Source: Phaeotremella fagi (lineage: Eukaryota > Basidiomycota > Tremellomycetes > Tremellales > Phaeotremellaceae). From it: DNA of 64,000 nt. This document shows positions 17,028 to 43,600 of the stretch, in pieces. Numbering within the stretch: position 1 is the first letter of the stretch; every line of letters begins with the position of its first letter. The notes beneath the pieces were generated by a model. That model made no database searches. It saw nothing but the letters and a program-made list of their open reading frames with translations, and had not been told where the DNA came from. The position numbers were made by a program, and so were the translations under genes. Location: contig BCHU01000001.1 of assembly GCA_001599715.1 (NCBI GenBank), positions 62,001 through 126,000 on the forward strand. Direction: 5' to 3'.

Positions 17028-17566
17028 GATAATGTAGGTATGGATCAGTTAGTAACGTTGAACCATTGAACACTGACAACTGATTCATATTCAGATGTAG
17101 CATAACTGAATGTAATTGTAATTTGAGCCGTTACAAGAATTTTGTCGTTAATGTTTTCCTCCCAACCACATTAAATACTGGATTTACGCGGAACAATGCA
17201 GCTAGCACAGGTAGATAAACAGTCATTCCACGATAGTATCGGATTACACGAATATGGAATCGGGTCGAGGATGCCTTCTACTAACATCGACATTGCCGGT
17301 GCGATCGCTCCGTTGTTCATCGTGCCACATTCTTTGACCTCATTACTCCACAAATATCTGTACAACGAAGGCAACGAAAATGCTAGAATGTCTACGAAGA
17401 TTGGATCCTTTGTCACCCATCGAGTCGATTTTATGACATCAACGGTAATCCTTTCATTGACGTCTTCCATTTCTTGGACAGCTTACACTGATATACAGCA
17501 GTACTAATTCCCACTCGATTATTCTTTTTCAACCAACTCAACCAACAACTATCAGTTACGTCTACG
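17028..17566. other. Intergenic region before the Cys-patterned gene array
   Basis: About 540 bases. Overlapping open frames on both strands at 17171-17507 mirror each other and have no recognisable protein pattern, so I treat them as chance. The last ~50 bases before 17567 contain the CAACTCAACCAACAACTATCA-type leader that recurs before the next two copies. Confidence 0.5.
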
Positions 17567-18199
17567 ATGTACAGTCCCAACAAAGACGATTCCAACGCCA
17601 CCATCACCAAACTCAAACTCAACAACCAAATCTGGTCAAACAAAACCTACACATGTGCGTGTCAAGACCAACCTTGGTGCCCACCTGCTGCACCTGGAAG
17701 ACTTCACTTCTTAAACTCAACGGAGACAATCTACGATATCGACCCTCAACTCAAATCCACCAGTTCTTTGAAATCAAATTTGGTCTCAGAGTTCTGTTTA
17801 GCTAAGGCTCTCAAATCAGGTCACATGATCTGCACAGATCCAGAGAAACAAGAATGGGTTGAACATCTCAAGAGTACAGATCACTATTCAACAATCCGTG
17901 ATTTTGTCGGTGGAAACTTAGAAGGCAGAAGAATCAACGCAGAGTCACTCTCAACAATCATTCCCGACGTAAAGTATCTGGAATGCATCAACCCCGATCA
18001 ACAATGTCCAGAAGACACCCATATCTCAACACAATATCCTCATACCTATTATGTTCATAAGGAGGTTAAACATCATTCTTCTATGTTCAAAAAGAAGACA
18101 ACAACCGAAGAAGCCTACTGCTGTTTAAAGAGCATGATGAGAATGAAGGAAAGCGGGAAAGCTGTTGTTTTGGAGGGGGATTATACCGAGGATAAATAA
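17567..18199 (+). CDS. Cys-patterned array protein 1 (unknown function)
   Basis: An intronless 210-residue protein, the first of five head-to-tail relatives. It has no signal peptide and no transmembrane helix. Conserved elements, in order: DDSNATITK near residue 6, W..K(S/T)YTCAC at about 26-36 followed by PW, KSNL(V/I)S..CLA(K/R) mid-protein, ECINPD..CP at about 140-150, and YCC..SMMRM.ESG near residue 185, with an acidic end (EDK). The regular cysteine placement in a presumably cytosolic protein suggests metal binding or a redox fold, but no known domain is recognised. Copies 1-3 are closest to one another. Confidence 0.75.
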   Translation: MYSPNKDDSNATITKLKLNNQIWSNKTYTCACQDQPWCPPAAPGRLHFLNSTETIYDIDPQLKSTSSLKSNLVSEFCLAKALKSGHMICTDPEKQEWVEHLKSTDHYSTIRDFVGGNLEGRRINAESLSTIIPDVKYLECINPDQQCPEDTHISTQYPHTYYVHKEVKHHSSMFKKKTTTEEAYCCLKSMMRMKESGKAVVLEGDYTEDK

Positions 18200-18353
18200 G
18201 CTTCTATCGTGGTAAATGCATCGTCTACTTGTGGCTCATGTGCACCTCCCTTGTTGGCTCACTCTTTGTGGAGTAGATTGCATGTATTTGAACACAGACG
18301 TTCTCCAAGTGGCAAGCTGACCCTACTGTACAACCTTTGATACCTATCAACCC

Positions 18354-18472
18354 CCCTTTCATTGTTGCCTTCCATTTTTCTTATCATGGACGCTTGATTT
18401 ACTAGACAGCGCTATTAGTTCTCTCAACTTGTCTTCAACCAACTCAACCAGAAATTATCGATATCACTCACA
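18354..18472 (+). repeat. Duplicated 5' leader of array gene 2
   Basis: A ~120-bp block (cccctttcattgttgcctt... through acttgtcttcaaccaactcaacca) repeated almost unchanged at 19319-19443 before gene 3. Both end just before the start codon, so the promoter and leader were copied with the gene. Confidence 0.7.
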
Positions 18473-19096
18473 ATGAGTATTCATGAGAAAGATGATTCCA
18501 ACGCTACCATCACCAACATCTCTCTCTTCAACAAGACTTGGGTCCATAAATCCTACACTTGTGCGTGTTCAGGGCATCCTTGGGTCGCACCAGCTGCACG
18601 AGATGGACTTCACTTCTTAAGTTTGTGGGAGACAATCCTCGATATTGACTCTCACTTCAAATCCTCCAGTCCTTTAAAATCAAATTTGATCTCAATCTAC
18701 TGCCTAGCAAGAGGTTTCAACGCAGGTAGTATGATCTCTACCGATCCCGAATTGCAAGAACAACTCGAACCACTCAAAAGTGATAGTGTATACAATCTGA
18801 TTCCAGACTTTCTCAGTGAAAATTTCAATGTCAGAACACTCAATTCAGATTATTTATTGTTCGATACACCCAAAGAGTCTCCAGAATGTATCAACCCCGA
18901 TCAACAATGTCCAGATTATCTTCATATCCGAACAGAGGATCGTGAAAGTCACTATGCCCATGAGGTCAGGAAGGAGCATTCTACATTTGGGATACAAAGA
19001 TCAGTAAAGAAGCTTTACTGCTGCATATCAAGCATGAACAGAATGAGAGAGAGTGGGCGGGCTAGTGTGTTGGAGGATTCTGCTGAGGATAAATAG
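18473..19096 (+). CDS. Cys-patterned array protein 2 (unknown function)
   Basis: An intronless 207-residue paralog of its neighbours. Shared blocks are DDSNATITN, W..KSYTCACSGHPW, ILDIDSHFKS, LKSNLISIYCLAR, ECINPDQQCPDYLHI, and YCCISSMNRMRESGRASVLE, ending EDK. It starts 906 bp after the start of copy 1 and 971 bp before copy 3, so the duplication unit includes flanking DNA. The 3' flank (about 19200-19250) also resembles the flanks of copies 1 and 3. Confidence 0.75.
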   Translation: MSIHEKDDSNATITNISLFNKTWVHKSYTCACSGHPWVAPAARDGLHFLSLWETILDIDSHFKSSSPLKSNLISIYCLARGFNAGSMISTDPELQEQLEPLKSDSVYNLIPDFLSENFNVRTLNSDYLLFDTPKESPECINPDQQCPDYLHIRTEDRESHYAHEVRKEHSTFGIQRSVKKLYCCISSMNRMRESGRASVLEDSAEDK

Positions 19097-19318
19097 TCTC
19101 TATCATGATAATGTATTGTATGCTTGTGGCTCATATACCGTATAGTACATCTTCTTTGGTGGCAAACTCTGGAGTCTCTCATTATCGAATCAGTATAATT
19201 TTGAACGCAGATGTTTCCAATTGGCAAGCTGCGCTTACATCCTTTGAGTGGCACACCCTGTCGTTTTTCACCAAAAGGGAAAAGAGCGTCTACGGAAGAC
19301 CATACCATGAATGGTGAG

Positions 19319-19443
19319 CCCCTTTCATTGTTGCCTTCCACTTTTCTTATCTTCGACAGCGCACTTACCTAGACAGCGCTAATAATCCTAAACTTGTCTT
19401 CAGACAACTCAACCAACAACCATCAATTTCAATATCAATTACC
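19319..19443 (+). repeat. Duplicated 5' leader of array gene 3
   Basis: Counterpart of the block at 18354-18472, sharing the cctttcattgttgccttcca element, the gacagcgcta motif and the CAACTCAACCA leader immediately before the ATG. Confidence 0.7.
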
Positions 19444-20100
19444 ATGACTAATCACGACAAAGATGATTCCAACGCCGTCATCCGCAAAGTCTCTCTCAAC
19501 AACAAAACCTGGATCACCAAATCCTACGCTTGTGCATGCCAAGGGCAACCTTGGGCCACACATGTGATCCCTCATTGCTTGGCTAAGTGGAGAAGAATTG
19601 TAGATATCAACTCTAACTTCAAATCCACTCACCCAACCACTCCTTTCAAATCAAATTTGATCTCTGTCAATTGCTTGGCCAGCGCTCTTGAGTCAAATGA
19701 CATGATTTGTACAGATCCAGAAAAACAAAAAGCAATCGAAAAAAACAAGAAAAGTGTTGAACATTCATTTCGATTGATCACTGATTTTCTTTACGAAAAT
19801 TACACAACAAGAGGAATCAATGCAGATTCATGCTCCTCACTCACGACCTACGCAGAATATTTAGAATGTATCAATCCAGATGGAAAATGTCCAAATGCGA
19901 GTCATATCACAGCGGAATCTACGGAGAATTATTGGGTTCATGAGGTTAGTAAGGAGCATTCCATATTTGGAAAAATAATCCCGGCAAAGAAGCTCTACTG
20001 CTGTTCAACGAGTATGAGTAGAATGATGGAAAGTAAGAGGAAAATAAAGAAAAGAGGGGAAGCTGCTGTTTTGGAGGAGGTTTCTACTGAAGATGAATAG
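19444..20100 (+). CDS. Cys-patterned array protein 3 (unknown function)
   Basis: An intronless 218-residue paralog. It keeps DDSNAVIRK, W..KSYACACQGQPW, IVDINSNFKS, FKSNLISVNCLAS, ECINPDGKCPNASHI and YCCSTSMSRMMES. Compared with copies 1 and 2 it has a Lys-rich insertion near the C-terminus (KRKIKKRGEA) and ends EDE. Flanking sequence on both sides matches the other copies. Confidence 0.75.
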   Translation: MTNHDKDDSNAVIRKVSLNNKTWITKSYACACQGQPWATHVIPHCLAKWRRIVDINSNFKSTHPTTPFKSNLISVNCLASALESNDMICTDPEKQKAIEKNKKSVEHSFRLITDFLYENYTTRGINADSCSSLTTYAEYLECINPDGKCPNASHITAESTENYWVHEVSKEHSIFGKIIPAKKLYCCSTSMSRMMESKRKIKKRGEAAVLEEVSTEDE

Positions 20101-20413
20101 TCGCTATCGTGGTAAATGCATCGTATTTGTAGCTCTTGTGCATTCCCTCAGTAGCTCGAAGCTTTTGTGGAGTATCTTCTCATTATTCAGTACGGATGTA
20201 AACAGCTTGGACGCAGACCTTTTGGACATGTAAGCTGTCTCTACATCCTTTGACGAGCTCATTTTTTGCCTTCCCCCGAGAGCAGCTTCTTTAGAGGACC
20301 ATACTGTAGTTCTGGAAGAAATGTCTAGAAATAAGTTGTCTCCCAGGTTTTGTTTGAATTTCAACAAAATACATCTTTTTGCCAAAACGATCGACCACTA
20401 AGTACAAGTCCCA

Positions 20414-21013
20414 ATGTCGTTCAATCCAATCACCCCGACAAGTACAACATTCCAGAGATCCTCCATTGATCCAACACAATTCACAAGAGTCTTTTACGAC
20501 AATCGTGAATGGACTAGAATTCAACAACAACATGAATGTTTATGTTCAATCGAAAACGGATTCGGATTATCGTTGGTACCGCACTACATCAAACCTGATG
20601 AAGAAGTCATCAAAACTTCTAGAGGTGTCATCACAGCGGATTGTTTAACAAACGCGATCCACCAGTTTAAATTTTTCGACGACGACAAACGAAACGATAT
20701 CGATAAACTCAACATGATCAAAAGATTGTCCAAAGGCGATGCTCTGAAAGACGTCCTTCTAGATCATACGCCACCCTACAGCTTCTCTAGTGCTGGCTTC
20801 AAAAGCAAAAAAAATTGGACAGATACGTTCCCATGTTCGAGTGAACACTGTCATCTCAAACCTATAGTCAAGGAATCACCGTTTTATTGGGAAGGTGGAT
20901 TGAGGAGAGAAGAATACTGTGATAGAATGATGAGATTCTGTGATGCCGAGATGTCTTTGTTAATCACGAATGGGATGGCTCAGATTGTTGAGTATGTAGG
21001 TAATTCTCATTGA
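20414..21013 (+). CDS. Cys-patterned array protein 4, diverged
   Basis: An intronless 199-residue protein with the same layout but weak identity to copies 1-3. The ECLCSIE element replaces TCAC, DCLTNAI replaces CLA, CSSEHCHL lies mid-to-late, and EEYCDRMM replaces the YCC block. It starts 970 bp after copy 3, so it fits the array spacing. The cysteine positions, not overall identity, support membership. Confidence 0.65.
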   Translation: MSFNPITPTSTTFQRSSIDPTQFTRVFYDNREWTRIQQQHECLCSIENGFGLSLVPHYIKPDEEVIKTSRGVITADCLTNAIHQFKFFDDDKRNDIDKLNMIKRLSKGDALKDVLLDHTPPYSFSSAGFKSKKNWTDTFPCSSEHCHLKPIVKESPFYWEGGLRREEYCDRMMRFCDAEMSLLITNGMAQIVEYVGNSH

Positions 21014-21593
21014 GCTCGGGAGGAGGCACACCCACTGGTCCAAGACGTAGATCGACTTTTGGCGGTAGAGAAGCTGGTCATACCAGACATTCATCACGGT
21101 CTTCTGCTACTCAACTCGGTTACTTTGATTATCAGGGTTAGCTCGTCGTATTTTGTGATACGACGTTGTTTAGTGGAAGAAAGTCGTGGTTTCATGTTTG
21201 TACATAGGAGATTAAGATGCAGTATGAAGTTGAAATATTGAAAAGCATCTTTAGAAACTTGGATCAAGCTCGCAGTACCACAAGTTGGTCAATCCCATTT
21301 CCCACGATACCTGGGTCTTCTAAAATAAGAACTTTTCGGGGGACGCAGGGAGCTCACTCGTTTACACCCCCTTCTATTGAACGGAAGACATCACTCCATG
21401 TGGCGCAAATCCCGAAGACCCACTCACAATGCGTAAATTACGTGGGCTAGATCCTTTCACGCTTTCAAAACCATTCTTGCTGCAATCATTCACCGACGAC
21501 AATTATCACAGCCCTTCTTTCTTTAAATAACCCTCAACACCCGGATTTGATCTTTCCAACGTCCACTCAAATTTAATCACTTTAGCGAAAGAA
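21014..21593. other. Intergenic region within the array
   Basis: About 580 bases between array genes 4 and 5. Open frames at 21059-21241 and 21217-21450 show no family pattern. The last ~100 bases form the leader of gene 5. Confidence 0.5.
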
Positions 21594-22232
21594 ATGTCGA
21601 TTCTCCAAGAACCCTTATTTAAACTTGATCCGTCAACGGTCACCAAGGTATCGTACCAAGATAGAGTCTACGATCTCATCGAAAATCTTCATGCATGTGC
21701 ATGTTCAAGTATTAAAGGTTCGACCTCAGAACCCCATTATCTTCAGCCAGAAGATTGGGTCTACCAAATAGACACCGATATAGATGATCACGACAATGAA
21801 GTTCCAGTCTTCATCTCACAAACCTGCTTAATCAAGGGTATGATGAAATCAGAAATCTCTTTTGAGGACTACCATGCCTCGCAAGTCATGTTATTCAACC
21901 TAAACCTATACAGTTCAAACGCAATTAAAGACTGGCAGTTGTACAACACATGTAAAGAGATTTGTTCGAAACAGTTCAAATCTTATCGAGTAGGTCAAAG
22001 AATCAGACGAAACGTTTTCGACAGTTACACCTGTTCCGGTATCAAATGTTGTTCTAGAGTCATTCCACTTGAAGCTTCACATTTTTGGCAAGAAGACGTT
22101 GAGAACAGTATTCATAAACGAAGATATTGCGGTCCCTCGATGGATGAGTTGATTTCTAATAGCAAAACTAAGATTCTTGAGAGTGGCGAATTAAAGGTTA
22201 GACATAACGTTATTGGTATCATGGGAATTTAG
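21594..22232 (+). CDS. Cys-patterned array protein 5, diverged
   Basis: An intronless 212-residue protein. It has HACACSS (the CxC element), QTCLIKGM, a CSGIKCC cluster and RRYCGPSMDEL near the C-terminus, so the element order matches genes 1-4. It is more similar to gene 4 than to genes 1-3. No secretion signal. The C-terminal tail (VIGIMGI) is not shared with the others. Confidence 0.65.
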   Translation: MSILQEPLFKLDPSTVTKVSYQDRVYDLIENLHACACSSIKGSTSEPHYLQPEDWVYQIDTDIDDHDNEVPVFISQTCLIKGMMKSEISFEDYHASQVMLFNLNLYSSNAIKDWQLYNTCKEICSKQFKSYRVGQRIRRNVFDSYTCSGIKCCSRVIPLEASHFWQEDVENSIHKRRYCGPSMDELISNSKTKILESGELKVRHNVIGIMGI

Positions 22233-28210: not shown

Positions 28211-30102
28211 TCATTTCTTCCAAGCCCAATTGTGCCACATAATTGTTGCCTAAAATATATGATATCAGCTCACTGTACTCAATTTCAAACGTGTCAAATG
28301 CCACACAGAAGTACATCCAGGTCGACCAAGGTCGTTCAAGAAGTCTCGAGTTATTTGCGGATATTCGGAAAGAGGAATATCACAAGCGTCGACCAACAAG
28401 AGTCGAACAGCCTACGGAATTTCGTCAAATAATATCATTCACGCACCAACCTCCGGTGACAGCTTTAAATCCTCAATGGCAATATCCCTTTCGAAGCTTA
28501 GTCAGCTAAACCTTATTAATCATGATAGACATGTGAATCTCACCCTGCCTTTTTCAGATGAGGATCTTGACACGTAAGTAATTTCCATCATTGTAACTCA
28601 CCCGAGGACCAACCCCAATGAGGAAAGAGAATGTCTTTTTGGAAAACTTCTCCGAACATCCCACTCTCTCCCATACATTTGACAATGGTAACCTCAGCTG
28701 CTCTCATATCAAATCCTCGTACTTCCATGGCACTACAGTTGCGTTATAAAAGTGTATCTCATTTTGACATAGGAGACTTACCGCCACAGGAGTTCATCGA
28801 ACTTCGAAAATCCAGGAGCTACGATCTCCCTCTGTTCCTTGGGAACACCGACTAGAACGCATGGTCCAGCAAGTTCCACCAAAATGAGTAGTCCACCAGG
28901 TTTAAGAATTCTGATACATTCGTTGATGAAACTTTTCCAATCACGAATCTACCTGTATGTCAGTCATGTAATGTAAGTATTGAGACCCCAGATCTTACCC
29001 CGGCGACAAGAGCCCTTCCGTGTACGACATCAAAGTATGCATCCGGAAATGCCATTGGCTTTGTAGCATCATCAATGACGAATTGAACGTTCTCAGGGAT
29101 GTTGTAGTCCTTTTGAACTGGCGCTAAATCGACACCCTGTGACAATATCAAGCCAATGGTATTTTAATCACTCACAATGAACTCAGCTTTAGGAAATTCT
29201 AAAGCCATTTCAACAAGCCTGTATTTAAAGTTCAGCTTATAATGATGGGAAATTGACAAGTGTCTGGATGGACTAACCAGATACCAGTACCTAAACGTGT
29301 TACCATTTCCCAGTCATCAGGTGAGATAATGACTTACCGCATCCGATATCAATGCATCGTTTCTCGCTACCTTCAAACGGGAGTGCCACTTTAAATGGCG
29401 CCAGATAGTTGACATCACCCTGAGCCTAAAAGTATATTCAGAAAACCATCCATGTTCAATGAAATATTACGAACAGCTTTGATACCGAAATGTTGTATGT
29501 CGAGGCGCTATATATCATAATATAGTTCATATGCATGTTACAGTACACTGTATTTTATGACTTACGTGTAGCTCCGGTTCGTCTGAATACATTTTATGTC
29601 AGTCCTCGACCTAAAAGTTCGTACATCACCTACCCGCTGGTAGCTAAGAGAGGCATTACATAGGTTAGAGAACGATCTCTTTGCCAAATTCCATTTGAAC
29701 ACATACGGCATATTCATCTGAACTTTTGATCAGTGTCCGTCGTAGTACATGAGATGTTAAGCTTTTACCATTTCGCGCTTGATACTTTCTACCCTCGTCC
29801 TCTGATCCAAATGATCAACTCAAATCATAAAGTTTTACCAAATTCCTCACCTCGAAAACTGGTCCATATAAGTGGTTGTATTTAAGGATTAGAAGTTGAT
29901 TCGCATTTTACTCACACTCTAGAATTCATGGTAGTGGTAATTGAAAATGCACCTGTGACAAGAGTGGAAAAGTCAGATACTGTATGAAATTGATCGATAC
30001 AGGTATTGAAAGACGTAAAAAGGATTACTTACTGAACGTGTCAGATGATGAATGTTCAGATTTCACTTCCGAATTAGCAAAGGTCATAGGTTTATCTAAC
30101 AT
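28211..30102 (-). CDS. SAM-dependent methyltransferase, array copy A
   Basis: Fungal LaeA/TAM-type class I methyltransferase. After splicing, the N-terminal half reads VFREDEGRKYQARNDEYALPADEPELH-like sequence (spread over many exons), then RLDIQHFGIKA, QGDVNYLAPF, CIDIGCGTGIW (SAM motif I), LVEMALEFPKAEFIV, an acidic VIDDATKPMAFPDAYFDVVHGRAL block, and FPHWGWSS near the C-terminus, ending MWHNWAWKK at 28211. Tiny exons: 8 nt at 29851-29858, 11 nt at 29707-29717, 10 nt at 29634-29643, 17 nt at 29566-29582, 13 nt at 29278-29290. The substrate is unknown. It is the last gene of a head-to-tail array. Confidence 0.82.
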
Positions 30103-30250
30103 GATTCTTGAGATGTTATTGTAAATTCTTACTCGTAAAATATGGAAGAGATGATGTGAATAAACGGCGTGCATTCAAGTCTGTTTGGCCATAAATCCAA
30201 TCAATCAATCAACCTCCTTTGGAATATATCTGTTAAATCAAACTAATCAC

Positions 30251-30325
30251 GGCGGCCGATGGTCGTTTGAGTTGTTTCATCTCCCATGCCCTTTGGGCGT
30301 TGGAGCGTTAAGCGACATCCGTGAT
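30251..30325. repeat. Promoter block shared with copy B
   Basis: About 75 bp upstream of copy A that matches 32470-32546 upstream of copy B. Common elements are cggc-accg-type start, gtttcatctcccatgcc, ttgggcgtt and agcgttaagcga-atccg. The flanking 3' regions of copies B and C (about 30405-30480 and 32630-32715) also match, so whole units were duplicated. Confidence 0.65.
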
Positions 30326-30466
30326 CGAACAAGACAATGTTCATCGCTTACCGAGCACTAGATCTTCCAATGATACATAAACAGACAATATAAGCATATC
30401 TCTACAAATTGGCTGAGTCGCCCGTCAATCATCCTCCATACATTGATTTTACGAATCGATACAAGA

Positions 30467-32322
30467 TCATTTCTTCCAAGCCCAATTGTGCCACAATGTT
30501 GTACCCTTCATATGTCAGACATCCTTCACAGTGAGAAAACTAAAGTGTCGAAAAATATGACTTACAGAGTGAACACCAGGTCTACCAAGATCGTACAGGA
30601 ATCCATGGGATAATTCTTCGTATTCTGGAGCGGAGATCTGACAAGTATCCGTGATTAAGATTTCCAAAGCCTAACGTAGAAGTCACAGTACGGTATCATT
30701 ACAGTACTTTCCAACCTACCTCGGGTGCATGTTTGATATCTTCGATCATTATATCCCTAGATATCATCAGTTGACCAAGCATGTACGTTATTGTGGATGT
30801 TTCCTACCCAGATTTCTTGATTTGAGGGTCTACAGTCCTTAGTAAACGATTCAAAAATACTTACACCCACCAGAAGACCAACCCCAGTGAGGAAAAATCG
30901 ATTTCATACGGTGGACTTCGTCAAAGTTCTCGTTCTCCTTCATCAGTTTAGGGATAGTGAATTCAGCAGCCTTCCCATCCAACCCTCGAATAGTTAAAGC
31001 TCTGAAACCGACCAATATCAGTTCATACCGGAAAGAACAGCAATGAATTACCTTCCCATATACTCGTTGAACTTTGAGAATCCTGGTGCGACGATATATT
31101 CTTGACCTTCTGGGACATTGAACAGACAACAAGGCAATGTAGCTTCTACAAGAACGAGTAAACCACCAGGTTTCAGGATGCGATTGCATTCTTTGATGAA
31201 GAGGCCCCAGTCTCGAATCTGTAGCGTCTCAACGTTGTAGGATTGCATAGAACTTACGCCAGCAAGTAATGCCCTTGCGTGAACCAGATCGAAGGATTCA
31301 TCTGGGAACGCCATTATTCGGGTAGCGTCATCGACTACGAAATGGACGTTGTCTGGAAGTTCAGAGTCCTTTTGAATGGGGGAGAGATCGACACCCTAAT
31401 CGTCAGTCTGATATATCTTGTAGTCGATACTGACGATAAATTCAGCTTTGGGGAATTCCAGAGCCATTTCGATCATCCTACAGTGTATAGTGAACATTGC
31501 AAGAACTCAAAGCTCACCAAATACCAGTACCTGAGATCGGGTTAGATTTGAATGCCTCTGTCAGTCGTACTCACCGCATCCAATGTCAATACATCGTTTC
31601 TCACTACCTTCAAAAGGGAGAGCTTCTTTTATCGGTGCAAGATAATTAACATCACCCTGAGCCTAATCAAAGTATCACTAAGGATATCACATTTGAAGAT
31701 TAGGTAAATTTACCGCTTTGATACCGAAATGCTGTATATCGAGTCGCTGGAGGGAATCATTCAGCTACTTCTCAAGGATTGCAATAAAGTAACCTACTTG
31801 AAGTTCCATCTCATCTAATCGACTATCAACTTTGAAGCCCTACTCAACAGTTAAATAACTTACCAGCTGGTAACTGAGCGAAAGTGTCGTCAATCGTCAA
31901 CCCAACCGCCAAAAAACATGCGCGACATCTTACAACGCATTCATCTATCTCCTATCAGGATCGAAATATACTCATAAGTTTAAAAGCATACCATTTTGTG
32001 CTTGATATCGCCTCCCATTATCCTCTGGCCACTGAGATTAGTGCGACTTGCCAAATGGCAACGTAACAGATCCTCGTACCTCGGAAACTGTCAAGATCAC
32101 CGTTAACATATTGTACCGTACGTCGAAAGTATTCACAAAACGTATACTCACACTCTATGATCCATAGTCGTGGTGATAGAAAATGTACCTGTGACAGTTT
32201 CATTGATGAGATTCTCGAGATTTGAAGGGATGTAACTATGTTTACTTACTAAAGGCGTCCAGCGAAAGCTGTTCAGATTCTCTTTCCCACCTCTCTTCAT
32301 CATTCTTCAACGAGTTTGTCAT
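30467..32322 (-). CDS. SAM-dependent methyltransferase, array copy B
   Basis: Paralog of copy A. It starts at 32322 (MTNSLKNDEERWERES) and ends LWHNWAWKK. The best-preserved open exons carry MAFPDESFDLVHARALLAG, RDWGLFIKECNRILKPGGLLVLVEATLP and ALTIRGLDGKAAEFTIP. Tiny exons: 8 nt 32080-32087, 11 nt 31918-31928, 10 nt 31864-31873, 17 nt 31798-31814, 13 nt 31518-31530. The 11-nt exon has diverged (D-V-A-H instead of D-E-Y-x) and its donor is gttttt, weaker than in the other copies. SAM motif I remains DIGCGTGIW. Confidence 0.82.
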
Positions 32323-32469
32323 AATGTTTTATATAGATTAGTAGATTAAAGCATAGATAGAGGATCAGTTGGTAGTAGGAGAAGAAGCAAAATGAAGATT
32401 GTGTCCACACTTGTCACATTGGTCTATGCATTTCACCATCAAATGCAATCAATTACAATCCAATCAATA

Positions 32470-32546
32470 TCGGCGACCGTATGATAATTCATTTGAATTG
32501 TTTCATCTCCCATGCCGTTGGGCGTTCAGCGTTAAGCGATATCCGG
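32470..32546. repeat. Promoter block shared with copy A
   Basis: Counterpart of 30251-30325, about 150 bp upstream of the copy B start codon. Its conservation against a more diverged background suggests either recent duplication or retained regulatory function. Confidence 0.65.
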
Positions 32547-32692
32547 ATCATGCGTCACGACAGTATTGCATCAATGACCAAGAACCACACTATCTTCCTA
32601 TATTACATCACCTGGTTGTACAATCATAGCTCTACAAATTGTTGAGTCGCCCCTAAAACTTCCTAAGATTCACTTGACGAATCGCCACAAGA

Positions 32693-34650
32693 TCATTTCT
32701 TGTAAGCCCAATGGTGCCAAATGAGAAACCCCTAACAGAATCCGTCATCTCAGCTCTTCACGGTATCGCATGATCTGATAATTGCAATAACGAAAGGAAT
32801 TACTTACAGAATTACAACCTGGCTTCTCAAGTTCCGATATAAAGTCTTTAGCTAAAACATCGTAGTCTTGACTGGTGATTTGACATGTATCCATTATCAA
32901 GAGTCGGAGCGCCTAAAAACAGTCATATTAACGATTATCTCCGCAGCGCCACAACTCCTAATAACTCACTTCTGGAAAAACTCTCATATCCTCAAGAGCG
33001 ATCTCCCTTATTGACGTTAGCGTCTTACTTCATCCCAGAACGTTTACTCACCCAGCTTTCTTCAAATTTGGGTCTAAATGGCGGCTGGGTCAATTACAGT
33101 GATAACAACAATATCGATTTTACGTACCAGATGACCAACCCCAAGATGGAAAAATAGTTTCATATTGAGATATACCGACAAGGTTATCGTGTTCTTTTAA
33201 ACATCTTGGAATAGTATCGCTTCCAGGTCGAAGATCTAATCCTCTGGTGGAGAATGCTCTGATATCATAAGACTCCTAGCACTAGAAGGTTACGATAGAA
33301 ACACTCACCGGAACAGATGTTGCATAAATCGTGTATGACCTGGAGCAACTCTCATCTGATCTTCTTCTGAGACACCAACAATTAATGCTGGAATAACAGA
33401 TTCAACAAAAACAATCAGTCCACCAGGTTTCAGAATTCTAACACATTCTTTAATGACGGAATCCCAATCTCGAATCTATAACCACTGTCAGTAGATAACC
33501 ACTGTCAGTAGGAGTCATCGAAAATGATGTTGTGGATGATGAGACTGACTCCAGCAAACAAGATTCTAGCATGGACGAGATCGAAGGATTCATCTGGAAA
33601 TGACATGGTTGAAGTAACGTCATCAACGACGAAATGGATGTTGTCGGGTAAGTTGTCGTCTTTTTGGACTGGTGCTAAATCAACCCCCTGGACTGTCAGT
33701 GGATATCTTTCAGGTTACCTACGATCCATTCAGCTTTAGGGAATTCTAATCCCATCTCAATAGCCCTATAGAATTGATCAGAACCGCTGCCTCTTTCCAG
33801 CGACGTAAAACTTGACATACCAGATACCCGTACCTACAGTGAATTGTAGTTAGCTGGTGAAACACTCGGGCATCTATGTATCACCCACCACATCCAATAT
33901 CTACACATCGTTTATCTTGACCTTGAAGCGGGAGAGCTTCTTTGATCGGAGCAACATAGTATACATTACCTTGAGCCTGGTGTTGATTGAGCGACAAAAA
34001 ACATTTCTCGTAGTCGAACTGTCAAACTTACAGCTTTAAACGCGTAATGTTGAATATTGAGTCGCTAAAAACAGTCAGACGCCATATATTATTATCGCAA
34101 TTGCTAACGTACGTTCATTTCCGGTTCATCTCGCTCCAAGTTAATCTCCATTATCTCGTGCCGAAAGAAGAACATACCTGCAGGAAGCTAAGAGGAAACG
34201 AAGAATAACATCAATCTGTCAATACCAATTCCAGCGCTATCGATAAACTTTACCGCGTAATCATCTAATGATGGTAAGTTAATATTACCATGTTGATGTA
34301 TTATTAAACTTACCATTTCTAGCTTGGTATCGCCGCCCGTTATCCTCTTTTCGAAGTCAATATTACTTTCACGAGGTAATTGAGCCCATCTCACCGCGAA
34401 AACTGTTCCAGTCAAATGTCAACATCATATCTTATTAACAGTAACGATCACCTACATTCTAGAATTCATCGTACTAGTAATGGTGAAAGTACCTGAGAAT
34501 ATATGTTAGCTTGATTGTTCGGTATTTGGATAGTTACTTACTCATAGTGTCTATCGACATTGATCTCTCTGATTTAGCATCTGCATTATCCTTATCGTGA
34601 GATGTTTTATTCTCCATGTTGCTTTCCGATATCTCTTTTGAGGGATCCAT
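32693..34650 (-). CDS. SAM-dependent methyltransferase, array copy C
   Basis: Start at 34650 (MDPSKEISESNMENK), with an acidic, Ser-rich first exon. It ends IWHHWAYKK, so the last conserved Trp is Tyr. Tiny exons: 8 nt 34395-34402, 11 nt 34254-34264, 10 nt 34178-34187, 17 nt 34113-34129, 13 nt 33821-33833. Motif I is GCGTGIW with an alternative codon (ACG for Thr). The central exons are recognisable (DVTSTMSFPDESFDLVHARILFAG-type block near 33560-33610). Open in each exon I checked; I did not verify every junction. Confidence 0.78.
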
Positions 34651-34927
34651 ACGTTAACTAATATAGTTATAAGAAGATCAAGAAAGAAGAATGAATCAAT
34701 AATTAGTACTTGACAATGCCCGTTTTGATCCTTTTCAAAGGGGGACCAATTCTCTGGAAAAGTCCTTTGAGTGAATCCAATCCATCAATGACATCAATGA
34801 CTTGAAAACTGCCAATTAACACATGTATTCATCATTATAACACTATACCGTACACATGACTGCATCATTGCAACCTACAGTACATCAAACGGGGATTCCA
34901 ATTTATACAGAATTTTGATCTTCAGTG

Positions 34928-35130
34928 ATTACTTCTTCCAACTCTAACTGTGCCGCGTACGAAATGCCCAAAATAATATGGATCACTTTGCCTATTCGTC
35001 TCCCAAATGCCCCAGACTCTCAGAATTTCAACCTGGTTTACCGAGATCCAGTAAGAAAGTCTCTAGCTATAGTTGCGTATTGTGGAGCGGGAACTTGACA
35101 ATCTACTCGTATACTAATTGGCTACCCCGT
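34928..35130 (-). pseudogene. Methyltransferase remnant (3' exons only)
   Basis: Sequence homologous to the last two exons of the array genes: the segment at about 35015-35100 aligns with the penultimate exon of copy C, and the terminal codons at 34928-34960 align with the W-H-x-W-A-W-K-K end but with Trp codons lost (one is CGG, one TAG). Directly next to it (35126-35152) is a 27-bp element that otherwise sits 73 bp upstream of the copy D start codon (37244-37270, one mismatch). So the body of a former copy was deleted, joining its 3' exons to its own promoter. Confidence 0.7.
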
Positions 35131-35307
35131 TTTGATCCGTTTCATCATCAAACTAGGGGCGCTTTAGCCATCGGAAATTCTCATTGTAATTACAAAAAGG
35201 ATACATTCATTTCTTCTTATGGAAACAGACCAGAGCTCTCACTGACTCTGTTGGACATTGATGTACATCAAGCACCTCACGATTGAAAAGGTGAAAACGG
35301 CATTTTA

Positions 35308-37171
35308 TTATCTCTTCCAAGCCCAAGTGTGCCATATACGAACTCCCTGTCGATAACAAGTTAAAGACCCTCTTGAGTTGAATTATTAGCTTACAGAAGT
35401 GCATCCTGCCATACCCAGCTCACGTAGGAACCCTCTCGACAAGGAATCGTATTGGGAAGCGGTAAGCTCGCACGTATCCATGATGAAAAGCCGAAGTGCC
35501 TAAATGTATCGATTAATGTTTGATCACTTGGGCGTCTCCCACTCACCTCTGGACAATTTTTGATATCCTCAATAGCAATGTCCCTACCTAGTGTGAGAAC
35601 TCTTACAAGCGTTTGACGGAATTTACTCACCCAGCTCGCTTCATGTTCGGATCTAAATGCGTGAACACCAATCAGCCGTGATATCAAACGTACTGCAAGC
35701 AATGTTATTTACCAGAAGACCAACCCCAGAGCGGGAAGAAGGTTTCATACCGAGACACCTTCAATAGTTCCCCACTGCTTCGCATAGTGTTAGGAATAGT
35801 CTTTTCAGCTGCTTCCAGATCGAATCCACGAATGACACAGGCTCTGAAGAGAATTGTCTCAGTCGCTGATGTAGTCTAACGAGTGTTACTTACTGTTTGA
35901 TATATTCTTGCATCTTCATGAATCCAGGTGCGACTCTCATCCATTCATTCTCTGGAACATCGATCAAAACCCATGGAAGATTACCTTCGACGAAAACCAA
36001 GAGACCACCTGGTTTCAAAACTCGTACACATTCCTTGACAACGAAATCCCAGTCCCTAATCTAGTTTTCGTTTGTTCTTAGTGCTATCGTGGCACAATAT
36101 TGTTTAAGAGACTTACACCGAAAACGAGAGCTCTTGCGTGAACCACGTCGAAGTATCCATCAGGGAAAGCCATTGTTTTGCTGACATCTTCGATGACGAA
36201 ATGGACGTTGTTTGGAAGACATGTATCTTGTTGAACAGGTGCCAAATCGATTCCCTAGAGCTTAGTTGTAGAAGCGGATACAGACAACGAACGATGAATT
36301 CAGCATTTAGAAATTCCTTTGCCATTTCAATGGCCCTGTATGGACTTGATGAGTGAAGTGACGGATCTTGCACCCACCAAATCCCACTACCTATCACTCG
36401 ACATAAGTATATGAAAGGAGAAGTATGCTGATCTAAATGACATACCACATCCAACATCCAAACATCTCTTATTCATACCTTGCATAGGCAGTGCGTCCTT
36501 GATAGGCCCAAGGTCATTCACGTCACCTTGAGACTGAAAGATGTCAACGTCAATCACGGAAGTCTCATCCGAACCTTGTACTCACTGCTTTAAAAGCAAA
36601 ATGTTGGACATTCAGTCGCTGAAAGAACAGATTCAGTCTTCATTCACTAACATTTCGTGCACTCACTTGCATCTCTGATTCATCTAGGAGTAATGTTAGT
36701 TTCCTAATCATAAAAGTCACCTACCGGCTGGAAGCTTTGACCATTGAAAAGAAAGTCAGTAAAAGTCCTGAAAGCAAGATTCTTCATACCGGATATTCGT
36801 CTTCATTTTCCCAGTGATTTGTCAGATACTGCATTCAGTACATAAAGAGATACTCACCATTCAGTGCTTGATATCGCCGCCCGTCATCTTCTGCAGATTA
36901 ACGTCAATCACCAACCAAACTAGTCCACATACCTCGAAAGCTTGATGAAAGAGTCATAATTGGATCTGTTAGTACAGTTTAGAAAGGGTTTACAGACTCA
37001 CATTCGCGTCTCTAATGAGGTACCGTAGGAAAAGGTACCTGTAAAGGTACATAAGCGGAGACCACCGTTGATATGCAAGTTACACGTACTGAAAGTGTTT
37101 GGTGACATTGGTCTCTCAAGATCTGTCTCTGAAAGTAGTTGAAGATCTTTACCGATGGGATGGTCAAGCAT
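35308..37171 (-). CDS. SAM-dependent methyltransferase, array copy D
   Basis: Start at 37171 (MLDHPIGKDLQLLSETD), end RIWHTWAWKR at 35308. Tiny exons: 8 nt 36933-36940, 11 nt 36790-36800, 10 nt 36725-36734, 17 nt 36667-36683, 13 nt 36378-36390. The 13-nt exon encodes G-S-G-I-W, so motif I is GCGSGIW rather than GCGTGIW. The post-I acidic block and the DFVVKECVRVLKPGGLLVFVEGNLP-like motif are recognisable at about 36000-36060. Substrate unknown. Confidence 0.8.
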
Positions 37172-37243
37172 TACTGTATATTTGTATCAATGATGAGACT
37201 AGAGAAATGACGATTGATAGACAAGACGAGTCAGATCTCCTTA

Positions 37244-37270
37244 CCCGTTTTGATCCGTTTCATTATCAAA
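37244..37270. promoter_or_regulatory. Conserved upstream element of array genes
   Basis: A 27-bp element, 73 bp upstream of the copy D start, beginning cccgttttgatccgtttcat. It recurs at 35126-35152 (26/27 by eye) and its first half at 34719-34731 upstream of copy C. Possible core promoter or factor site of the array. Confidence 0.5.
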
Positions 37271-37405
37271 GTAATCCATCAAGTCAATTACGGAAATACA
37301 CATCCTATGATAGCACAACCTTCCCGAAACACATGACATCACAGAAAGATCGCATCAATCGACGACACAAAACTGACATCCCATCGACCAGGCAGCATTC
37401 AACAA

Positions 37406-39398
37406 TCAGATATCACCTTTCGATTCCGTAACTGAAACAAGCTTTTTCCAACCCCAATTGTGCCACATTTTGACCCCCTGAAGACGATTCTAAATAAGCA
37501 ACCAAGTCAAGTACGACATGTAAACACTCACAGAATGACACCCAGGTCTACCAAGATCGTACTGATAATCTTCTACTATGACATCATATTCTGCGTCGGT
37601 GATCTCTAATGCGTCAGTGCATAAAAGTCGGGTAGCCTGTGTACATCAGACAGAAAAACGAGATATGAGGAATCGGCTAAAGCTCACTTCTGGCACATTC
37701 TTAGAATCTTCAAGTGCGATGTCTCTAGATCAAATTGAGTTTGGTTAGCGATATCCTGAATCTTAGAGACTAGCTGTACTGACCCGGCTTTCTTCATTTT
37801 GGGATCTGAACGGACAATTAGTTCAGATTATGTCTAATCTGCACAACAAACAGTAGCATACCTGATGACCAACCCCAAAGCGGGAAAAACGTCAATTCCT
37901 TGAAGACCTCGTGCAGTTGACCACTTTCCCTCATGTTTCTACCAATTTTCTCACCGGCAGTTTGAGTATCAATTCCACGAATTGCAAGGGCTCTTTCCAA
38001 ATGTGACAGATCAGCTCTATCCAACATAATAACACAGTATAATGAACTGACTGGGTCAAGATTTCGCAGAACTTGAAACATCCAGGACCGACGACATTCT
38101 TTTGATCCTCTGGGATTCCGATAAGAGAGGGTACTGAGCCTTCAACCGATACGATTAGACCGCCAGGTTTCAGGACCCTCAGCATTTCGTTGACAACAAA
38201 TTGCCAATCTCGGACCTGAAGTATACAGCATTTCAGCTTCCAGTACGGTAGTATCACACCAAAACAAACTTACACCAACAACTATCAATCTAGCATGAAC
38301 GACGTCAAAGTAGTTATCTGGAAACGCCATGCCTTTGCTGACATCGTCTGTAACGAAATGGACGTTCTCGGGAATACCGGTGTCCGCTTGAACTGGTACA
38401 AGATCGACTCCCTACATTCGTGAGCGGTTCCAAACTTGCAAGGGTTGAGAAGGAATAACTAACTATCCATTCTGCTTTCGGAAACTCTTTAGCCATCTCA
38501 AGTACCCTATTCCATATTCCATTAGTTAACTGTTAACAGTGATCCAGATGGAACCCACCAGATACCAGTACCTAAATGTCGATGTAAGCTTGTTGTATCA
38601 ATCAAACAAATTAACTCACCGCATCCAATATCAAGACATCTCTTGTCATGACCCTGCATGGGAAGCGCTTTATTGATTGGTGCCAGATAATTAGCGTCGC
38701 CTTGAGCCTATACCAGAATTGAGCGTGACGTGTGCCGATGCCATATTAAAATGACTTACCGCTTTGATAGCAAAATGTTGGACATTAAGTCTCTGCAGAA
38801 TTGAGTATACTCGTAATCTTTGGGTAATCGGTTCGCCACATCTACTCACACGTAATTCCATGTCGTCTGTAAATAGGATGGCGAGATCAGTTCAAAGACA
38901 ATGAAGAAAGCAGGTCATCTGTGACCTACCTGCTGGTAGCTTTGCGAGGAGAACAATTGTTAGTGATGGTTGACAACGGAAATGTCCTTCATACCGAATA
39001 TTCATCTGATACCATCAGTACTACTGCAATGGACTGTAGTTATTGAATATACCCACCATTCATAGCTTGATAGCGTCTCCCATTATCCTCTAAAGTCTCG
39101 GATGAGCATTCTCCCAACTCTTCAGCTTGCCGACGAACCTCTAAAACTGCTTATGATCAGAGATATGTTGACAAAAGACATGGCATAAGGTAGTTGCACT
39201 CACACCCTGTCCTCCAATGAAGTACCGAACGAAAAGGTACCTGTGAAGATAATGATAATGATTAGGGATCACCAACATCAGTCATATTACAACCGACTTA
39301 CTGAATGTTTGCCGTGATGATGGTCTATCAGAAGCTGAATCTTTGTCTGAGCTTGAAAGCATATCGATTTCGGTATTAATAGGAGCGTCAGGCATCAT
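37406..39398 (-). CDS. SAM-dependent methyltransferase, array copy E (extended C-terminus)
   Basis: Start at 39398 (MMPDAPINTEIDMLSS; a second ATG follows directly). Tiny exons: 8 nt 39139-39146, 11 nt 38995-39005, 10 nt 38930-38939, 17 nt 38850-38866, 13 nt 38559-38571, giving GCGTGIW. The conserved ending M-W-H-N-W-G-W-K-K is followed not by a stop but by about nine more residues (LVSVTESKGDI), with the stop at 37406-37408; the other copies stop right after K-K or K-R. Other blocks: MAFPDNYFDVVHARLIVVG and NEMLRVLKPGGLIVSVEGSVP. Confidence 0.8.
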
Positions 39399-39748
39399 AT
39401 TCACGATGAGGAAGTGTTCAACCCAATAATATTATGCCTATCAGTTGAAAGCGGGGAAAAGTGAGTCGAGAAGAGAGATATAAATGTGGTCATTTTGATT
39501 GATTGCAATCAATCAATCAATCCTCGCCAATCAACCTCTGAAACACTCCTTTGGCACTGATTCATCGGTCATATGCAGGACAATCGCCGACAGGGCAGCC
39601 TTTTCTCCAAATTCCATTATCCAAATATCATTGATTAGAGACAAGCTTGGATTTGAAACTACAAACAAATTCGATATCCCGAGAAGGAGCTACCCAAGTC
39701 ATACATCAAATCTTACAAACAGTAACAATAATACAGTAAATTCCCACA

Positions 39749-41622
39749 TCACTTTTTCCAGGCCCAATTATGCCACAACGGAGAAACCTACAAATTTAGT
39801 GCATGATACTGAAGGTGAGAAGAGATACCTACAGTGTTGCATCCAGGACGACCAAGATCATGTAACCATCCTTGAGCCAGCAGCTCATATTCCTGAAAAC
39901 TAATTTGACAAGCGTCTATGATAAGCAGTTTTGCGGACTTGACAGTATCAGTTTTTCACACAATTTTGTGAGCTTACCTCAGGAAAAGCTATGCAGTCCC
40001 CATACAATATATCACTTCATCTTGATGAGGATAGTTACGTATCGACTTCATCATCTCACTCACCCAGCTTTATTCAAATTCGGATCTTGAAATCTCAGCA
40101 TGGTGTACTCAATCATCAACTATTTTGGGAAAAACATGGGACTTACCCGTGGACCAACCCCAATGAGGTATAATCGTTTGAAATTGAAATACCTCCCCAA
40201 GAGCATCATTGGCTCTCATCTGTTCAGGAATCACTCTTTCCCCAGCTTCACACTCGATACCTCGAGTCTTCAATGCTCTTCCAAAAGTATCAATAGATGG
40301 TTCACAGACTCACACTCACTTCATTAAGAATTCGACGAATCTCGTGAAACCAGGTGCAATCAATTTCCCCTCTTCTTTTGTAACTCCCATGACATAAAGT
40401 GGGAAACTTAGTTCCGCAAAGACAATTAATCCACCTGGTTTCAATATTCTAACGCACTCTTTGACAATGACATTCCAATTTCTTATCTGGAGGGGAAACA
40501 TTTAGCAGACACGATGAATGGATAAAGAGACTTACGCCGACAGCAAGAGCTCTAGCATGAACGACGTCGAAATATCCGTCAGGGAAGGAGATGGTTTTGC
40601 TAATGTCATCAACGACAAATTGGACGTTTTCTGGTATGTCGGTGTCTTTTTGAATTGGGGCTAGATCTAGACCCTAAAGCGTGAGTTTTCCATAATGACG
40701 ATCAACTCACTATGAATTCTGCTTTGGGAAATTCCGTAGCCATTTCAATCAACCTATGTAAGTGGTCTTAATGAGTTCTGAGTCTTGAAATTGCAGACGA
40801 TGAGGGTGACGGACCAAATGCCAGAGCCTGAGTCGCCAAATCGTCAGTGTGCGAATGAGGTGACTTGCTCGAAAAACTCACCACAGCCAACATCGATGCA
40901 CCTTTTATCTTTACCTCCGTCTGGTAACGCCTCTTGGATAGGGGCGAGATAATTAACATCTCCTTGAGCCTTGAATGGATCAGTTCAATCAGTCAATACT
41001 AAAACTAAGCTGTACATACAGCTTTCATACCGAAGTGTTGAGTGTCAAGTCGCTATAGGACATTATCGTTCAGACCTAGTATTCATAATTTACTACTTAC
41101 CTTCATCTCTGGTTTATCTGGAGGATCGTCAATTGAGTCATCAAATAGTCATATATGTCACTTATCACTTACCTGCGGGCAGCTTCAAAATGGAAGACTG
41201 TTAATTCATTTCCGAAACCCTCTCTGAGAAATCAAGGTAACGCACGGAATAATCATCTGTCATGATTTCAATATCTCTCCATATACAACCAGACAGACTC
41301 ACCATTTTGAGCCTGAAATATCCTTCCATTATCTTCTGTGGACGCGTCAGTCCTCACCGACTTTTGTGATGGCAAGAAATAAAACTAACCTCTGAATCTA
41401 AAGAAGTGTCCTTGTCAGCACTTTTAATCGATTGAACGATACTATGACTTACACTCTTGTGTTCATTGTACTTGTGAATGTGAACGTACCTAAAAGATAA
41501 TTCAATGGTCAAATTCACAGCTACTTAATTGTTAATTGATCAAAAGACTGACTGTAGGCGTTTGGTGAACCCGGTCGATCGATTTGTGGTTCTACAGTAT
41601 CTTCATCATTAGCTTGAACCAT
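39749..41622 (-). CDS. SAM-dependent methyltransferase, array copy F
   Basis: Start at 41622 (MVQANDEDTVEPQIDRPG), end LWHNWAWKK at 39749. Tiny exons: 8 nt 41390-41397, 11 nt 41246-41256, 10 nt 41173-41182, 17 nt 41101-41117, 13 nt 40815-40827. Motif I is DVGCGSGIW; the 13-nt exon begins gc rather than gt, so its splicing still gives Gly. The RNWNVIVKECVRILKPGGLIVFAELSFP block is at about 40410-40490. The first and most diverged copy of the array. Confidence 0.8.
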
Positions 41623-42780: not shown

Positions 42781-43136
42781 GTCTTGGGTGTATCAGGTAG
42801 GTGAGTGTCTGTTTGAATAGTGAAAGTAGGAGGAAGTCCGGAAGAATGAACTGAAGTGTAGTCCTACGGCAATTTACTGACATGGAGTGGAAGACTACGT
42901 TTTGAAAGGAGTTGATTTTAATATGATGGGCTGGTCTTGAATTTGGCAACAAAGGTGCACTCCACTGAAAAGGCATACTTTACATTCATCAACTTCAGAT
43001 CTGTCAACAGACAAAGAATAATATACTTAATAAGAATCTCCCTGCTATTGAAACCGCCTTTATGCCCTAGTTAATTAGATAGCATTTACGAACACCACTT
43101 CTTCTAAACACCGTGATGTGGCATATTTATTGACAT
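42781..43136. other. Intergenic or 5' exon region
   Basis: May hold the first exon of the minus-strand hypothetical gene (open frame 42761-42976). Otherwise AT-rich with nothing recognised. Confidence 0.35.
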
Positions 43137-43600
43137 TCATTTCTTCCAAGCCCACTTATGCCATAAAGTATAAGCCTACACGTCATGAAAAAGAAGGATA
43201 TGTATCAGGTCAGCTGAAACGATCATTAATGAGTAAGATATCACACTATAGTACTCCCTGGAGGGATCTGGATCATCCAGCCAAGCTTTAGCGAGCTCCT
43301 GGAATTATGAAGCAGTGACTCGGCAGGCATCAGCAAAGTATTTAATAGTCGAAGTGACTGATAACCATATTTCAGTCTCGACACCGGCAGGAAACATTAT
43401 TTACAAACATCAGCTACCCTTTGAAATCTTCGATCATTATTTCACTTCATAACCAGTCGGTGACGGATGGTTCAACACAGTGTGCGTCAGACAGCTTTTT
43501 TAGTAACGGTTCTTGACAAGATAAGTTACAGATAAACATATGTCCACGTACCAGGAGACCATCCTGACAGTGCGACCTGTAGCATCACACGTGGGATATC
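43137..43600 (-). pseudogene. Decayed methyltransferase copy
   Basis: Begins with the array's terminal codons (L-W-H-K-W-A-W-K-K then stop at 43137), followed by recognisable but broken penultimate-exon sequence (about 43255-43330) and a matching FEDLIIE-type segment at about 43425-43450. Further in, an accaggagaccatcc stretch matches the FPHWGWSSG exon region. The frame is lost by indels and upstream exons are absent. It shows that the array once extended further. Confidence 0.65.

Follow-up and report, generated by a model that had tools for sequence, protein, structure and literature searches.

A shared series of micro-exons in six tandem, intron-dense methyltransferase genes of the tremellomycete Phaeotremella fagi

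Contig BCHU01000001.1 of the Phaeotremella fagi assembly (GCA_001599715.1; Tremellomycetes, Tremellales) carries six tandem methyltransferase genes in which conserved protein sequence is divided among exons as short as 8 nucleotides (nt). Does such a run of micro-exons act as a splicing checkpoint or switch, as an earlier note on this DNA had suggested, or is it the architecture that the family inherited? The question was approached computationally in a stretch of 64,000 nt (positions 62,001 to 126,000 of the contig, forward strand; hereafter the window), in which the six genes are all on the minus strand, with coding exons that extend over positions 28211–41622. The reading favored here, at a probability of roughly 0.85, is that these genes belong to an old, intron-dense family of class I S-adenosylmethionine (SAM) methyltransferases that was tandem-duplicated in this tremellomycete lineage, and that the micro-exons are inherited architecture with largely constitutive splicing.

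Copy 2 was modeled by hand, and its protein served as the query of a protein-to-genome dynamic-programming search for spliced alignments, in which introns of 30–160 nt were allowed in any phase and no prior was placed on exon length. Eighteen exons were returned for each of the six copies (Table 1). Read 5' to 3', exons 2–12 measure 37, 8, 33, 11, 10, 17, 33, 88, 13, 43, and 138 nt in all six, and exons 13–18 measure 167, 131, 22, 37, 105, and 39 nt in every copy except copy 5, whose exon 13 is 164 nt and whose last exon is 72 nt after extension to its stop. Exon 1 differs in length among the array copies. The start of copy 1 was placed at the most upstream in-frame ATG, with alternative starts that would give shorter first exons of 70 or 55 nt, and for this copy the search also gave one spurious additional first exon. 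The earlier note had read by eye exons of 8, 11, 10, 17, and 13 nt, in the same order and phases in all six copies, together with a 37-nt exon 2 and a 33-nt exon 4; the search, free to choose other lengths, recovered every one of them in 6/6 copies, and its coding exons begin and end to the base where the note had placed the array. A further micro-exon that the note had not named, the 22-nt exon 15, was likewise found in all six. Micro-exons are taken as exons of 1–15 nt in work on plants (PMC8831610) and of up to 51 nt in wider use. The internal coding exons of 8, 11, 10, and 13 nt fall within the stricter limit in every copy, and the 17- and 22-nt exons within the wider limit only.

The identical micro-exon lengths are real, but they are not special. 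Nearly all exons, long ones included, are equal between copies, so that the micro-exons would owe their equal lengths to shared descent, and equal length as a speciality of micro-exons was rejected. The striking part is the intron density: copy 2 has 17 introns in 1.005 kb of coding sequence and the six copies together have 102 in 6.2 kb, or 16–17 per kb, and each of the tandem genes contains six exons no longer than 22 nt. Of the 31 stop-to-stop frames in the window that reach 150 codons, none lies within the array, and the neighboring genes are therefore not so finely split. Cryptococcus neoformans, a tremellomycete that also has dense short introns and tiny exons, shows a median coding-sequence intron of 55 nt, a median exon of 194 nt, and only 3.35 introns per kb of coding sequence; its exons, identified in an RNA-seq-based annotation, go down to 1 bp and are hard to identify automatically (PMC3990503).

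Exons this small can be called by accident, and their reality was examined in several ways. When the copies were used as queries on one another, 25 of the 30 ordered pairs gave exons 2–17 exactly; the remaining five all missed exon 2, and in one case exons 3 and 4 as well, whereas exons 5–7 and 10 were recovered in 30/30 pairs and exon 3 in 29/30. For a null, a micro-exon and its two introns were base-shuffled, with three of the six copies used. Some exon, whatever its length, was still called in 100/225 runs and one of the right length in 14/225 (8 nt, 4/45; 11 nt, 3/45; 10 nt, 4/45; 17 nt, 3/45; 13 nt, 0/45), and a single called micro-exon is therefore weak evidence. The same length in 6/6 copies, on the other hand, is not expected at this rate, even with the copies being related.

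The codon signal points in the same direction. Across nine paralogs (the six array copies and three genes of contig C5, d1–d3, described below), pairwise identity at codon positions 1, 2, and 3 is 0.76, 0.91, and 0.44 in the micro-exons of ≤22 nt and 0.70, 0.80, and 0.43 in the other exons, and intron interiors stand at 0.27–0.28, which is about chance. The modeled frames of the six micro-exons rank first among 729 possible frame assignments, bearing out the phases and coding content that had been assigned by eye to the five named in the earlier note, the adjacent 11- and 10-nt pair included. In this scoring, exons 13, 14, and 18 were taken from eight of the nine copies, one copy differing in length; for d1, lengths of 167/131 were imposed manually on exons 13 and 14 in place of the aligner's 140/161, and d3 was scored with the family borders of exons 6 and 7 (10 + 17 nt) despite the GA donor of its exon 6. 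These data indicate that the micro-exons are translated, with protein-coding constraint in the stated frame. Pairwise nonsynonymous divergence (dN) is 0.23–0.44 and synonymous divergence (dS) is saturated (1.3–3.7 or undefined), which marks the copies as old and constrained; despite this age, the six window copies have kept every intron position.

According to Pfam, the protein of copy 2 belongs to PF13489 (68.2 bits; curated cut-off 27), PF08241 (65.5 bits; cut-off 21.2), and PF13649 (60 bits; cut-off 27), and the array products are predicted to be class I SAM-dependent methyltransferases (Methyltransf_23/11/25), with motif I located between the first core strand and helix, as in the class I fold. 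NCBIfam had nothing above cut-off among the matches listed (25 of 30 and 25 of 26). Two proteins named LAE1 occur among the 120 matches listed (E 1e-30 and 1e-26), a distant similarity. LaeA proper is a velvet-complex regulator that, with its velvet partners, controls secondary metabolism. A paper on the Tremella fuciformis entry labeled AdoMet-MTases (P0090, D5KY51), sought as possible cDNA evidence, was not found. The entry P0096 is a 1489-bp contig with a 313-aa frame, and may be either a spliced transcript or a gene that lacks introns. The 13-nt exon 10 corresponds to the motif I loop, and thus to an essential motif of the kind encoded by the micro-exon of an Xlr2-type switch. It had been described as encoding G-(T/S)-G-I-W; the residues are right, but the two end codons are split, as the exon opens with the end of the G104 codon and closes with the start of the W108 codon.

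Is this micro-exon necessary for motif I? A whole-genome search with copy 2, which scores best candidates only, found a three-gene cluster on contig C5 (d1, d2, and d3) and one more distant gene, e1, on contig C6. The three C5 genes have the same series of 37, 8, 33, 11, 10, 17, and 33 nt. In d2, the middle gene (locus L037, C5:464.6–466.5 kb), intron 9 is absent, introns 8 and 10 on either side are still present, and the 88- and 13-nt exons are fused into one exon of 101 nt that holds motif I. The modeled part of e1 (locus L038, C6:153.2–154.7 kb) has ten introns, of which, by our own reading and leaving intron 1 out of the comparison, nine occupy array positions 2, 4, 6, 7, 8, 10, 12, 13, and 14; introns 3, 5, 9, 15, 16, and 17 are absent. 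In this gene the 8- and 33-nt pieces form a single 41-nt exon, the 11- and 10-nt pieces a single 21-nt exon, and motif I lies in an exon of 98 nt. One intron of e1 stands a codon off array intron 11, and may have slid or arisen independently. Between the array and e1 branches six introns differ, by gain or loss, and they include introns 3, 5, and 9, which bound the 8-, 11-, 10-, and 13-nt pieces; the absence of some array introns in d2 and e1 appears to be ordinary intron turnover.

Since d2 and e1 carry motif I in ordinary exons, the enzyme needs no micro-exons, and a requirement of motif I for a micro-exon of its own is ruled out. The earlier note had held that cofactor binding depends on micro-exon inclusion and had named, as a finding that would speak against it, homologs with the same residues in one exon; d2 and e1 are such homologs, and by the note's own standard the dependence is not supported. 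The third C5 gene, d3 (L037, C5:466.8–468.8 kb), differs in another way. The donor after its 10-nt exon reads GA instead of GT, and the best model of the aligner turns to a weak donor, GTCTCA, which gives exons of 16 + 11 nt with the same total as 10 + 17; this gene would be either spliced differently or damaged. Another C5 homolog, which has an uninterrupted frame of 328 aa, was too distant for comparison (29% over 97 aa, E 0.001).

The introns themselves are short and regular. In the six copies, 102/102 are GT-AG, in agreement with the ag/gt flanks first read by eye, and they range from 35 to 80 nt (median 51). Among the nine paralogs, donors are GT in 150/152 introns, the remaining GC and GA both belonging to d3; acceptors are AG in 152/152, and position 5 of the donor is G in 143/152. 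CTRAY, a branch-point motif, is present in 66/152 introns compared with 28 ± 5 after shuffling, with no clear difference between the introns that flank micro-exons (36/80) and the others (22/56; d2 left out). Short introns, GT donors with G at position 5, and the CTRAY excess would suit recognition across the intron.

A mechanism consistent with these features can be proposed. Each copy would have inherited 17 short introns from a shared ancestor gene, and the micro-exons would be what is left between introns that crowd into a stretch encoding conserved protein sequence. The introns would be removed singly by intron definition, an exon of 8–13 nt never being recognized as an exon; whichever flanking intron is spliced first, the tiny exon would become the end of a larger one. 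Splicing should then be constitutive for the most part, and a missed intron would in most cases leave an RNA with a frameshift or a stop. The constancy of the exon lengths would follow from the rarity with which introns shift position and from a conserved protein that allows few insertions or deletions in this region.

Another explanation is that of a regulated checkpoint, in which growth conditions control the inclusion of micro-exons, above all the 13-nt exon, or the retention of introns, and so switch the enzyme on or off. Skipping exon 10 in silico does remove motif I and shift the frame, as the earlier note had foreseen, with an early stop in 6/6 copies, and 94/102 introns, if retained, would shift the frame or bring in a stop (the other 8/102 read through in frame and open). 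Donors that follow micro-exons are also slightly weaker than the others (7.7 vs. 8.4 bits, p = 0.025; d2 left out), and a 20-nt micro-exon switch is described in Trichoderma Xlr2 (PMC11121469). A frameshift followed by an early stop would mean a lost product and not an isoform. Against such a switch, d2 on C5 and e1 on C6 do without a micro-exon for motif I. Conserved intronic elements were sought around the micro-exons in the 17 introns and none was clear: mean identity of intron interiors between copies is 0.49–0.58 against 0.46–0.57 for shuffled sequence, an excess of at most ~0.03, which gives no sign of a common control element in the introns. Fungi rarely skip exons, and C. neoformans, with a cassette-exon fraction of 0.02 (PMC2397502), is no exception; intron retention dominates, partly in a condition-dependent manner that has been reported as regulated in C. 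neoformans (PMC2397502; PMC5006051). A dedicated checkpoint or switch is thus not supported, and regulated switching of the micro-exons is unlikely; any regulation of the array would more likely act through intron retention than through exon skipping.

A related idea is that the out-of-frame run of micro-exons forms a collective splicing filter, in which enzyme would be made only from transcripts that have lost all of the closely set introns and a splicing efficiency set by growth conditions would tune all copies jointly, with the 11 + 10 and 10 + 17 pairs giving shorter isoforms in some relatives. This is an improbable extension. In a tree of 33 hand-chosen sequences, the nine array-type genes (six array and three C5) form one group (98/94) and nine Kwoniella proteins form a separate clade (100/100). 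Six of the nine models in this ortholog clade, drawn from 19 proteins compared and with indels before residue 24 not counted, have gaps, insertions, or truncation, each at a junction of the window genes. P0003, P0004, and P0094 lack exactly the 7 residues of exons 5 + 6 (21 nt), and P0092 lacks exactly the 9 residues of exons 6 + 7 (27 nt) as placed in one alignment, a pairwise aligner setting the same gap three residues earlier. Exactly at the exon 3/4 junction, P0093 has 27 and P0094 has 19 additional residues, as expected from intron retention, and P0097 diverges where exon 14 meets exon 15; core indels of ≥4 residues are absent from P0088, P0001, and P0002. Such lesions are what one would expect of orthologs with the same micro-exons, and the most economical interpretation is that the exons are indeed shared and were mishandled by automatic predictors. 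The six entries (P0003, P0004, P0092, P0093, P0094, and P0097) are likely public misannotations.

The same gaps could instead mean that the frame-neutral pairs 11 + 10 and 10 + 17 are real alternative cassettes and that the Kwoniella proteins shorter by 7 or 9 residues are true isoforms, given that three models lack exactly exons 5 + 6 and one exactly exons 6 + 7. Loss of exons 5 + 6, however, would remove Y67 and P70 (P0088 numbering), two positions with ≥90% invariance across 80 aligned fungal and related sequences. Moreover, for at least the 2025 Kwoniella set the gene models came from automatic prediction (BRAKER2 or Funannotate), only mating-type genes being corrected manually (PMC12510652), and micro-exons are commonly missed by gene predictors (PMC8831610; PMC11121469). 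Alternative cassettes are accordingly very unlikely here. Last, the micro-exons could be fitting artefacts and the genes pseudogenes or users of other junctions, as the junctions are read from genomic sequence, two family relics lie in and beside the array, and the aligner does call some exon in shuffled gaps, but the six open frames with canonical splice sites, the codon-position signal within the micro-exons, the low dN against saturated dS, and the scarcity of right-length calls after shuffling make this scarcely credible.

Inherited micro-exons with largely constitutive splicing therefore remain the favored account, against which several considerations have to be set. The intron density, about five times the C. 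neoformans average, is described by this account and not explained by it. The weaker donors after micro-exons could leave room for inefficient splicing. The sharing of exons by the Kwoniella orthologs is drawn from gaps in proteins. Finally, splice sites, frame, coding constraint, the intron positions common to nine paralogs, and the intron absences in two can be read from the DNA, and the use of the splice junctions is deduced from them.

The array was probably larger in the past, given two relics of the 3' ends of additional family members, one inside it and one beyond copy 6 (Table 1). Elsewhere in the window, positions 17492–22232 of the plus strand hold five successive open frames of ~200–260 codons, of which at least the first three resemble tandem duplicates of one small-protein gene.

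Table 1. Methyltransferase genes, their exons of 22 nt or less, and family relics (window positions).
Feature	Positions	Strand	Basis
copy 1, 18-exon methyltransferase gene	28211..30174	-	spliced-alignment search
copy 2, 18-exon methyltransferase gene, 334 aa	30467..32322	-	hand model + spliced-alignment search
copy 3, 18-exon methyltransferase gene	32693..34650	-	spliced-alignment search
copy 4, 18-exon methyltransferase gene	35308..37171	-	spliced-alignment search
copy 5, 18-exon methyltransferase gene	37406..39398	-	spliced-alignment search
copy 6, 18-exon methyltransferase gene	39749..41622	-	spliced-alignment search
8-nt exon 3, copy 1	29851..29858	-	
8-nt exon 3, copy 2	32080..32087	-	
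8-nt exon 3, copy 3	34395..34402	-	
8-nt exon 3, copy 4	36933..36940	-	
8-nt exon 3, copy 5	39139..39146	-	
8-nt exon 3, copy 6	41390..41397	-	
11-nt exon 5, copy 1	29707..29717	-	
11-nt exon 5, copy 2	31934..31944	-	
11-nt exon 5, copy 3	34254..34264	-	
11-nt exon 5, copy 4	36790..36800	-	
11-nt exon 5, copy 5	38995..39005	-	
11-nt exon 5, copy 6	41246..41256	-	
10-nt exon 6, copy 1	29634..29643	-	
10-nt exon 6, copy 2	31864..31873	-	
10-nt exon 6, copy 3	34178..34187	-	
10-nt exon 6, copy 4	36725..36734	-	
10-nt exon 6, copy 5	38930..38939	-	
10-nt exon 6, copy 6	41173..41182	-	
17-nt exon 7, copy 1	29566..29582	-	
17-nt exon 7, copy 2	31798..31814	-	
17-nt exon 7, copy 3	34113..34129	-	
17-nt exon 7, copy 4	36667..36683	-	
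17-nt exon 7, copy 5	38850..38866	-	
17-nt exon 7, copy 6	41101..41117	-	
13-nt exon 10 (SAM-binding motif I loop), copy 1	29278..29290	-	
13-nt exon 10 (SAM-binding motif I loop), copy 2	31518..31530	-	
13-nt exon 10 (SAM-binding motif I loop), copy 3	33821..33833	-	
13-nt exon 10 (SAM-binding motif I loop), copy 4	36378..36390	-	
13-nt exon 10 (SAM-binding motif I loop), copy 5	38559..38571	-	
13-nt exon 10 (SAM-binding motif I loop), copy 6	40815..40827	-	
22-nt exon 15, copy 1	28544..28565	-	
22-nt exon 15, copy 2	30808..30829	-	
22-nt exon 15, copy 3	33052..33073	-	
22-nt exon 15, copy 4	35631..35652	-	
22-nt exon 15, copy 5	37784..37805	-	
22-nt exon 15, copy 6	40064..40085	-	
relic, 3' end of further family copy, between copies 3 and 4	34927..35118	-	best blastn piece E 2.3e-5
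relic, 3' end of further family copy, beyond copy 6	43136..43446	-	blastn pieces E 6e-7, 9e-5

Several known systems resemble the array in part. In the basidiomycete Phanerochaete chrysosporium, nearly a third of the cytochrome P450 (P450) genes have micro-exons of 2–10 codons (PMC1184071), and an 8-nt exon lies inside a conserved P450 motif (PMC12940212). A 1-nt exon is reported from Fusarium CYP621A (PMC12940212). Like the array, the Phanerochaete P450 genes are clustered families with exons down to 6–8 nt, some in catalytic motifs (PMC1184071; PMC12940212). The enzyme is a different one, however, and a fixed-length run of five or six micro-exons across members is not described in the available part of that account (PMC1184071). 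Conserved micro-exons of plants, which are pervasively misannotated, keep their position, size, and phase across families, occur next to one another, and in some cases were lost by intron loss (PMC8831610). In Trichoderma Xlr2, the 20-nt exon forms part of a key motif, was missed by annotation, and shows a third-position substitution pattern (PMC11121469). The plant micro-exons were validated by RNA-seq and RT-PCR (PMC8831610) and the condition-dependence of Xlr2 was shown by RNA-seq (PMC11121469), whereas the array is known from sequence and has a paralog that dispenses with the motif I micro-exon. The LaeA-like methyltransferases of Pleurotus ostreatus share the class I SAM methyltransferase domain, but their genes have 5–6 introns each (PMC9502681) in contrast to the 17 of the array genes. 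In the literature searched, with most subscription-journal papers outside its scope, neither this methyltransferase family nor such a tandem run of micro-exons was found reported. Micro-exons as such are already known; the array is unusually dense in them and well replicated.

With nine paralogs that have the same small-exon series, this genome offers a replicated natural test of micro-exon splicing. The set includes its own natural variants, namely (i) d2, in which the motif I exon is fused to its neighbor; (ii) d3, with a mutated micro-exon donor; and (iii) the tenth, distant gene, in which two pairs are fused. The family also shows how ordinary gene predictors can err, and with six of nine Kwoniella ortholog models lesioned at these junctions, the protein databases of intron-rich fungi may hold many enzymes from which conserved motifs have been cut out.

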